In this document: in pieces, positions 14,167 through 34,259 of the stretch | Numbering within the stretch: the first letter of the stretch is position 1 | Layout of the letters: every line of letters starts with the position of its first letter | NCBI GenBank assembly: GCA_023150415.1 | Contig: JAKLKY010000012.1 | Coordinates: 1 to 49,121, forward strand | Direction of reading: 5' to 3' | Origin: Alphaproteobacteria bacterium | GTDB taxonomy: Bacteria > Pseudomonadota > Alphaproteobacteria > Micavibrionales > Micavibrionaceae | Length of the DNA: 49,121 nt | The notes under the pieces: generated by a model | What the model saw: the letters and a program-made list of their open reading frames with translations, nothing else | Database searches by the model: none | Told to the model about the DNA's origin: nothing | Program-made: the position numbers and the translations under genes

Positions 14167-14780
14167 CAAAGGGTTGGCCACCATCGCGGCGCCAGGCGCA
14201 GGCTGTGCGTATCCGCCGCTTGCGGCCCTGGCGCTGGTCGACGGGTCCACGCAGTGGGGCGGGCAAGGCGCGGGTGGCGATGAATGCGCGCAAACATGGG
14301 CTCTATGGCGCTGAATACCGTGCGCTGCGCCTGCAAATGCGTGCTTATCGGCGCTTTTTGGAAGGTTTGCACAAATTTGCCGACCCGGCGCAAGCATGGT
14401 ATAACGCCTACAGCAAAGAAGATCGGGCGGCCGCTCGTCCTTCGTCTCTTTCAGGTTTTTTTCCGGGCGCGTCCGGCGAAGCCTCGAAGAGGCGAAGGCG
14501 GGAGGAAAGTCCGGGCTTCATGGAAAGATGGTGCCGGGTAACACCCGGGCGGCGCGAGCCGACGGACAGTGCAACAGAAAACAAACCGCCGACCTGTCCG
14601 GCCAAGCCCTTTGGGCGAAGCCGGATGGAGGTAAGGATGAAACGGTGCGGTAAGAGCGCACCGCGCGGCTGGCAACAGACGTGGCATGGCAAACCCCACC
14701 CGAAGCAAGACCAAATAGGCGCTGCATTTTCTGCCTTTCCACAGACGTGGCGCGGGTCGGTTGCTCGAGGTTTGCGGTAA
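14154..14780 (+). CDS. Hypothetical protein with STGPR...KHGLYG motif; frame runs into rnpB
   Basis: TTG start at 14154 with AAGGA about nine bases upstream, overlapping the previous gene by 13 bases. The first about 87 residues look like a real small-protein family: RWSTGPRSGAGKARVAMNAR followed by KHGLYG, then a basic helix (RALRLQMRAYRRFLEGLHKF). From about codon 88 the frame lies entirely inside the RNase P RNA gene (14415-14848), and no stop appears until 14780. The residues encoded there (PSSLSGFFPGASGEASKRRR and on) are low-complexity and imposed by the RNA sequence, so the functional protein probably corresponds only to the part before rnpB, or the ancestral stop has been lost. The family has no assigned function that I know. 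Confidence 0.5.
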   Translation: MSTITKGWPPSRRQAQAVRIRRLRPWRWSTGPRSGAGKARVAMNARKHGLYGAEYRALRLQMRAYRRFLEGLHKFADPAQAWYNAYSKEDRAAARPSSLSGFFPGASGEASKRRRREESPGFMERWCRVTPGRREPTDSATENKPPTCPAKPFGRSRMEVRMKRCGKSAPRGWQQTWHGKPHPKQDQIGAAFSAFPQTWRGSVARGLR

Positions 14781-14848
14781 CGCAAATCCCAGATGAATGG
14801 TCGCCGCCTCTGTAAAGAGGCACAGAACCCGGCTTATAGATCTTCTTT
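14415..14848 (+). ncRNA. rnpB: RNase P RNA (bacterial type A)
   Basis: Catalytic RNA that trims the 5' leader of precursor tRNAs. The universally conserved parts are visible: GAGGAAAGTCCGGGCTTC (14502-14519), GGTAACACCCGGGCGG (14537-14552), GACAGTGCAACAGAAA (14565-14580), AAGGATGAAACGGTGCGGTA (14633-14652), AAACCCCACCCG with GCAAGACCAAATAG, and at the 3' end AGATGAATGGTCGCC and ACAGAACCCGGCTTA. Helix P1 closes the molecule exactly: AAAGAAGATC (14415-14424) is the reverse complement of GATCTTCTTT (14839-14848), and GGCGGCC pairs with GGTCGCC to form P2. A T-rich stretch (14845-14859) follows and could terminate transcription. The position just upstream of the dcw cluster is usual for alphaproteobacteria. 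The mature ends may differ by a few bases. Confidence 0.96.
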
Positions 14849-14923
14849 GTTTTTTATTTCTTATAATATATTAACGTCACCTTCCTAATAATTACAACAT
14901 TACAACCTCCAACCCCATCTCCT

Positions 14924-15036
14924 TGTGGATAGTATTTGCGACTCGCAGGTTTTGTTGACGATTCGCAAAACGCTGGTGTAGCCTAGCAAAGAGTCAAGTC
15001 TTGCGATCCTGAATCATCATAATCTTTCACCGATTC
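14924..15036 (+). promoter_or_regulatory. dcw promoter region with five GANTC (CcrM) sites, DnaA-like box and inverted repeat
   Basis: GANTC sites start at 14940 (GACTC), 14960 (GATTC), 14991 (GAGTC), 15011 (GAATC) and 15032 (GATTC), with start-to-start spacings of 20, 31, 20 and 21 bases, close to whole helical turns. TGTGGATAG (14924-14932) matches the DnaA box at eight of nine positions on the minus strand. A candidate sigma-70 promoter is TTGACG (14955-14960), 18-base spacer, TAGCCT (14979-14984). Arms TTTGCGACTCG (14935-14945) and CGATTCGCAAA (14959-14969) form an inverted repeat, one mismatch, over the -35. No GTGGG-type MraZ boxes are seen. Confidence 0.7.
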
Positions 15037-15052
15037 CTTTTTCATTATTGTC

Positions 15053-15991
15053 ATGCCTCATCAGCCTGTTTTGCTTGCCGAAGTATTGGATGCGCTCAAA
15101 CCTGTGGCGGGCTGCATTTATGTTGATGGTACGTTTGGCGCGGGCGGCTACAGCCGCGCGTTGCTGCAGGCCGCGCCCTGCCGCGTCATCGCTATCGACC
15201 GCGATCCCAGCGCGGCGGCATATGCCGCAAAACTCGGCGCGGAATTCGGCGCGCGCTTTGTGTTCATGCAGGGCTGCTTTGGTGATGTCGAGGATCTGCT
15301 GCGTAAGGCAGGATTTTCCAAAGTCGATGGTTTTGTGTTGGATCTTGGTGTGTCGTCAATGCAGCTCGACGAAGCGCAGCGCGGCTTTTCCTTTCGTTTC
15401 GATGCGCCGCTTGATATGCGCATGGACCCAACCAGCGGTCAAAGCGCTGCTGATCTCGTTAACACAGCCAATGAAAAGACGCTGGCCGATATCCTCTTCC
15501 AATATGGCGAGGAACGCGCCTCGCGCCGCATCGCGCGCAAGATCATCGAAATCCGCAAATCCGCGCCCATCACCACCACCGGCGCACTGGCCGATCTGAT
15601 CCGCGCCGTTGTGTCGCAATCCTTCAAGGACAAAAGCGATCCAGCCACGCGCAGCTTCCAGGCGCTGCGCATCGCGGTGAATGACGAGCTGGGAGAGCTG
15701 CGCCGCGCGCTGGGCGCCGCGCCGCGTATCCTCAGACCCGGCGGCCGCTTCGCCGCAGTGAGCTTTCATTCGCTCGAAGATCGCCTCGTAAAGGACTATC
15801 TCAAAGACCACAGCGGCCGCGCGGAGTCCGGCTCGCGTTACCGCCCGCAAACGCAATCCGCGCCGGCGTTGTTTGTGGTGGAGAATGCGCGCGGCGTCAC
15901 GGCAAGCGCTGAAGAAACAAAAGCCAACCCGCGCGCCCGTTCGGCGCGATTGCGCTGGGCGGTGCGGACGGAAACGGAGGCAAGCGTATGA
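15053..15991 (+). CDS. rsmH: 16S rRNA (cytosine(1402)-N(4))-methyltransferase
   Basis: S-adenosylmethionine-dependent enzyme that methylates C1402 of 16S rRNA at the ribosomal P site. The 312-residue protein begins MPHQPVLLAEVLDAL, with the SAM-binding YVDGTFGAGGYSRALL (about residues 23-38), AIDRDPSA, the family signature VLDLGVSSMQLDEAQRGFSF (about 96-115) and the C-terminal PGGRFAAVSFHSLEDRLVK (about 228-246). It is the first gene of the dcw cluster here because mraZ is missing: only about 200 non-coding bases separate it from rnpB. The stop overlaps ftsL (ATGA-type, 4 bases). No clear ribosome-binding site precedes ATG 15053. Confidence 0.97.
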   Translation: MPHQPVLLAEVLDALKPVAGCIYVDGTFGAGGYSRALLQAAPCRVIAIDRDPSAAAYAAKLGAEFGARFVFMQGCFGDVEDLLRKAGFSKVDGFVLDLGVSSMQLDEAQRGFSFRFDAPLDMRMDPTSGQSAADLVNTANEKTLADILFQYGEERASRRIARKIIEIRKSAPITTTGALADLIRAVVSQSFKDKSDPATRSFQALRIAVNDELGELRRALGAAPRILRPGGRFAAVSFHSLEDRLVKDYLKDHSGRAESGSRYRPQTQSAPALFVVENARGVTASAEETKANPRARSARLRWAVRTETEASV

Positions 15992-34105: not shown

Positions 34106-34259
34106 TTATCCACAACCATTTGATTCGGTTGAAATTGACTCTCTTGCATGGTGGTCCGAATCGGGTGTGGCAAAAAATCATGAGTCGGATGAATCACTTA
34201 CAGCTTTTATTTGCCCTGCGGTTTCTGTGCTGTTAGGCTGGTGAAAGGATTTATCAACA
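34106..34259 (+). promoter_or_regulatory. ftsZ upstream region with five GANTC sites and DnaA boxes
   Basis: TTATCCACA (34106-34114), four bases after the ftsA stop, is a perfect DnaA box; TTATCAACA (34251-34259) differs at one position. GANTC sites start at 34122 (GATTC), 34137 (GACTC), 34158 (GAATC), 34182 (GAGTC) and 34191 (GAATC): five in 74 bases. TTGACT (34135-34140) is a possible -35 overlapping the second site. In Caulobacter, ftsZ transcription depends on DnaA, CtrA and CcrM methylation with GcrA; the same logic is inferred here. The remaining leader up to 34389 contains no gene. Confidence 0.75.

Follow-up and report, generated by a model that had tools for sequence, protein, structure and literature searches.

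Five GANTC sites are packed into the short interval between the RNase P RNA gene and rsmH, at the head of the dcw cluster, and the question raised by this locus is whether they belong to a promoter that takes its timing from DNA methylation. In Caulobacter, CcrM and GcrA time ftsZ, mipZ and ctrA, and the targets of GcrA are rewired between orders. We analyzed a stretch of 49,121 nt (the window) of the source genome, labelled G000, together with related genomes. We think it probable that these sites form the heart of a sigma-70 promoter from which the dcw operon is transcribed and at which CcrM methylation is read by GcrA, likely with an input from DnaA.

GANTC sites and promoter elements upstream of rsmH

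The features of the locus are the following:

14415–14852, + strand: RNase P RNA gene rnpB, the upstream neighbour (Rfam RF00010, 305.7 bits)
14924–14932, − strand: DnaA-box-like element TGTGGATAG, a sequence match at 8/9 positions to TGTGNATAA, 31 bp upstream of TTGAC
14940–14944: GANTC site A (GACTC), 15 bp upstream of TTGAC, in 14/15 genomes with this promoter
14955–14960, + strand: −35 hexamer TTGACG, located by sequence; TTGAC invariant in 15 genomes selected on it
14960–14964: GANTC site B (GATTC), overlapping the end of the −35 hexamer; present in all 15 genomes, which were chosen for it
14979–14984, + strand: candidate −10 TAGCCT, weak, inferred with an 18-nt spacer; aligns with TG-N-TA... 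of relatives
14991–14995: GANTC site C (GAGTC), near the inferred transcription start, aligned in G006, G007, G010, G085, G087, G088 and G116
15011–15015: GANTC site (GAATC) of G000 only, relatives having no aligned site
15032–15036: GANTC site E (GATTC), 72 bp after site B, aligned at 71–72 bp in G006, G007, G010 and others
15053–15991, + strand: rsmH (mraW), an ORF, first gene of the dcw cluster

The preliminary description of this DNA had reported five GANTC sites, starting at 14940, 14960, 14991, 15011 and 15032, within 97 bp at spacings of 20, 31, 20 and 21 bases, along with a near-consensus DnaA box and a −35-like TTGACG overlapping the cluster. Reading of the window sequence bore out the coordinates, the spacings and both elements, as well as the location upstream of rsmH, from which the dcw cluster extends as far as ftsZ. 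Site B shares the final base of TTGACG, which puts a GANTC in or beside the core promoter. Directly after site C lies CAAGTCTTG (14995–15003), with CAAGGCTTG in several relatives, a short conserved palindrome-like word.

Some properties of the locus count against a CcrM/GcrA promoter. The −10 is poor, and a consensus promoter scan called no + strand promoter in the rsmH upstream region; of the five sites, A and B alone match the extended GcrA motif YGAKTCK.

The enrichment in GANTC claimed earlier holds for the cluster, while over the whole window the motif is rarer than dinucleotide shuffles predict (128 sites observed against a mean of 181 expected) and is thus avoided overall. A group of five sites within 97 bp arose in two of 60 first-order simulations of the whole window and in none of the 60 third-order ones. 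Genome-level density was assessed on a 163-kb sample of G000 sequence, where groups of at least four GANTC per 100 bp were seen only before rsmH, before ftsZ, in a hairpin that precedes obgE and, in one case, inside pepN. The obgE group, six GANTC within 70 bp of the rpmA–obgE interval (L123 6111–6190, contig C39), consists of GAATCTCA repeats and inverted copies; being a repeat hairpin, it was rejected as a related element. GANTC is under-represented in coding DNA, as it likewise is in coding DNA of CcrM-bearing alphaproteobacteria, whose intergenic DNA is enriched in it (PMC3973325). The observed-to-expected ratio (O/E) of GANTC in the dcw region of G000, 0.70, is the weakest avoidance among 17 genomes compared, which is one more point against the CcrM/GcrA reading; elsewhere in G000 the avoidance holds (O/E 0.50).

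Conservation at the two ends of the dcw cluster

With RsmH as query we collected relatives and compared the sequences that precede their first dcw gene. Fifteen genomes, from six genera of one family, were picked for TTGACGANTC, so that TTGAC and site B are present in them by selection; sites A, C and E and the DnaA-like box had no part in it. Before rsmH these genomes have a common frame: a DnaA-like box, a GANTC, 10 bp, and TTGAC fused to a GANTC. The DnaA-like element keeps its place, matching at 8/9 positions in 14 of the 15 genomes (7/9 in G011); it lies 31 bp upstream of TTGAC in G000 and, as an 8/9 match, 33–34 bp upstream in 13 of the other 14. Site A is kept in 14 of 15 genomes with C or A as its N, the one deviant letter being an A in G001. 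At site B the N may be T, A or G, with G, A, T and C unvarying. The flanks of the G000 copy are only 21–44% identical to those of relatives. Since the N varies, the four other letters are fixed and the flanks have diverged, the alignment points to selection acting on the GANTC (CcrM) word itself. In several genera there follow a GANTC near the inferred start with CAAG(G/T)CTTG and then another GANTC 71–72 bp after site B.

The 25-bp pattern GANTC-N10-TTGACGANTC had 18 matches in 104 family genomes, 14 of them upstream of rsmH and a single one in G000; the reversed control had one match in the same 104 genomes. Both the aligned sites and the pattern search therefore show strong positional conservation among relatives, the lack of which the preliminary description had named as evidence against its proposal. 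Most family genomes, on the other hand, have CcrM and GcrA and no rsmH module, and this has to be counted against the CcrM/GcrA promoter reading.

The preliminary description had also placed the sites on nearly the same face of the helix. The spacings are right, but the 15011 site is not conserved and the conserved spacings (20, 30–31 and 41) are those of the promoter frame, so the same-face arrangement is not independent of promoter geometry; extra GANTC sites in relatives stand at offsets of 9 and 11 bp, contrary to helical phasing. We rejected helical phasing as a signal.

At the far end of the cluster the window contains a second group of sites:

34106–34114, + strand: perfect DnaA box TTATCCACA upstream of ftsZ, in 25/30 ftsZ loci including that of G000
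34122–34195: second five-site GANTC cluster, between ftsA and ftsZ, found by sequence
34182–34195: GANTC-N4-GANTC pair upstream of ftsZ, at −160 to −235 in most relatives

The string GANTC-N4-GANTC-NN-TTAG upstream of ftsZ is conserved across the family, and the distance from the GANTC pair to the perfect DnaA box is 65–68 bp in 18 of 21 genomes and 76 bp in G000. A perfect box is found at ftsZ and none at rsmH. With the rsmH module and an independent ftsZ module, DnaA-like and GANTC elements are found at either end of the dcw cluster.

Distribution of CcrM and GcrA and alternative readings

Of 79 good family genomes, 78 have CcrM, recognized by its RAMA domain; GcrA is present in 46 of 48 good relatives. 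The preliminary description had proposed a check of the source genome for ccrM, gcrA and ctrA. A CtrA orthologue (71% identity) is present in the G000 assembly (92.5% complete, 96 contigs); the same assembly contains no ccrM, no RAMA domain anywhere and no gcrA, and it also lacks rnc and era, the neighbours of gcrA in relatives. The absence of ccrM and gcrA from the assembly counts against the CcrM/GcrA reading.

On contig C39, rnhB and mutY share 4 bp and leave no room for ccrM between them, a junction that we at first took for loss of ccrM. In 17 of 20 further relatives the order is ccrM> F7< mutY< F12> efp>, and wherever the sequence extends far enough, rnhB> precedes ccrM; each of the remaining three is incomplete at the ccrM locus or has no mutY match. 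C39 runs on into the hypothetical gene F7 and ends inside it, and contig C53 starts inside F12, the DUF721 gene preceding efp. On C39 (L123 819–2545) and at the start of C53 (L302), mutY and F7 are inverted in comparison with relatives, and both contigs break where ccrM is predicted. Inverting ccrM-F7-mutY reproduces the G000 order exactly and puts ccrM into the gap that separates C39 from C53. The conclusion of loss was withdrawn: as the two contigs break in genes flanking ccrM, and as rnc and era are missing too, assembly gaps are the better explanation for the missing ccrM and gcrA.

Other methylases of G000, two on contig C1 and one on C40, are all without RAMA. One of them, of phage type, is encoded on C1 (L287 1429–2658) close to other phage-like genes; its N-terminal part is ParB-like, and it contains a DPPY motif. 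The end of C39 (L123 9295–11986) has microvirus-like ORFs, named by eye as replication-protein-like and pilot-protein-like, beside rplU/rpmA/obgE; they represent either an integrated microvirus or a chimeric contig.

True loss of ccrM in the G000 lineage, leaving sites that are a relic or are read without methylation, is in our view unlikely. It would account for the rnhB–mutY overlap, the missing RAMA domain, the slightly relaxed avoidance of GANTC in the dcw region and the long RsmH branch. Yet a simple inversion places ccrM in the contig gap, the conserved sites are intact despite flanks diverged to near random, and avoidance persists elsewhere in the genome. A little less likely again is that the conserved words are the site of another DNA-binding protein, such as LexA, CtrA or some other regulator, which contains GANTC and for which methylation is irrelevant. 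LexA sites can indeed overlap GANTC in alphaproteobacteria (PMC7987155), and the ftsZ pair sits in a longer conserved string; however, a free central N at sites A and B within a fixed methylase word fits CcrM and not an ordinary site, and the CtrA motif TTAA-N7-TTAA is absent from both the rsmH and the ftsZ promoters.

Chance enrichment in an A+T-richer intergenic stretch seems very improbable. Intergenic enrichment in GANTC is general in CcrM-bearing alphaproteobacteria (PMC3973325), but the probability of the cluster under the local composition of 14853–15052 is about 5e-5, and the mraZ promoters of relatives, which are equally intergenic, have a mean of <0.5 sites per 300 bp. The orthologous positions of the sites across six genera already contradict chance.

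Proposed control of the dcw operon and the absence of mraZ

Methylation, binding of GcrA and of DnaA, and timing at the rsmH promoter are what we infer from the conserved positions, the free N in a fixed word, the divergence of the flanks, the rsmH-specific pattern, the near-universal CcrM and GcrA, the presence of CtrA and the ftsZ module. A sigma-70 promoter would start the dcw operon from rsmH onward, with an activity dependent on N6-adenine methylation of GANTC by CcrM, and the sigma-70 cofactor GcrA would read this methylation. Counting from an inferred start near 14991 (TTGACG plus the 18-nt spacer), site B would occupy about −31 to −27, abutting the −35, and site A, two turns upstream of it, could be a second docking place; DnaA would likely act from the box just upstream. 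Passage of the fork would make the sites hemimethylated and change promoter output, tying wall and division genes to replication, and the comparable GANTC pair and DnaA box may serve ftsZ at the far end. If true, a whole operon for wall precursors and the divisome is tied to replication-fork passage in a group that includes Micavibrio-like bacteria. In the open-access literature we found no paper connecting CcrM or GcrA with mraZ or with the head of the dcw operon, and our literature search found none linking GcrA with Micavibrio, a genus that the NCBI taxonomy lists in Bdellovibrionota.

Several Caulobacter promoters offer comparisons. GcrA occupies 12 nt of hemimethylated ctrA P1, spanning the −35 and the GANTC next to it (PMC3667746), and the site beside the −35 is at about −29 (PMC3667746, PMC4287350), similar to site B. 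Unlike the rsmH promoter, with its several sites and DnaA-like box, P1 appears in the relevant passages of these sources with one GANTC and with no DnaA box described, and its target is not a dcw operon. Two juxtaposed GANTC sites are known at mipZ (PMC3667746), and at podJ P2 a GANTC at −24 is paired with a DnaA motif at −82 (PMC4287350). These promoters differ in driving other genes, whereas the fixed A-N10-TTGAC-B module is nearly confined to the DNA before rsmH. A GANTC between −35 and −10 characterizes one timing class of promoters, with activation at 40–60 min (PMC4287350), and GcrA speeds open-complex formation at methylated promoters (PMC7403470). The Caulobacter ftsZ promoter is likewise activated by GANTC methylation and regulated by DnaA (PMC3973325, PMC4287350); ftsZ of the family studied here differs in having a GANTC pair 9 bp apart and a perfect DnaA box 65–68 bp off, or 76 bp in the window.

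An MraZ-controlled dcw promoter likewise stands before the first gene of the cluster, but genomes with the GANTC module are without mraZ. The mraZ gene expected in a genome with such control is lacking in G000, where no PF02381 match was found and no mraZ lies upstream of rsmH, and it is lacking in all 15 module-bearing genomes. Conversely, TTGACGANTC was found within 300 bp upstream of mraZ in 0 of 76 mraZ-bearing loci. It is possible, and we put it forward tentatively, that in one lineage the dcw cluster lost MraZ and gained replication-coupled methylation control through the GANTC-A/TTGAC-GANTC-B promoter with DnaA input. A highly conserved operon would then have been rewired from local feedback to control by the cell-cycle clock, a datable case of regulatory change in which MraZ gave way to a methylation promoter. 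The link of the module to mraZ loss rests on few independent events; the RsmH tree is too weak to place G000, whose RsmH branch is long, and in another family of the same order mraZ is missing without a gain of GANTC sites. The association lacks phylogenetic independence, with one pair supported and six on the best tree: at least three GANTC upstream of the first gene were found in 0 of 74 mraZ-bearing genomes and in 19 of 28 mraZ-less ones, the mean numbers of sites being 0.47 and 4.14, respectively.
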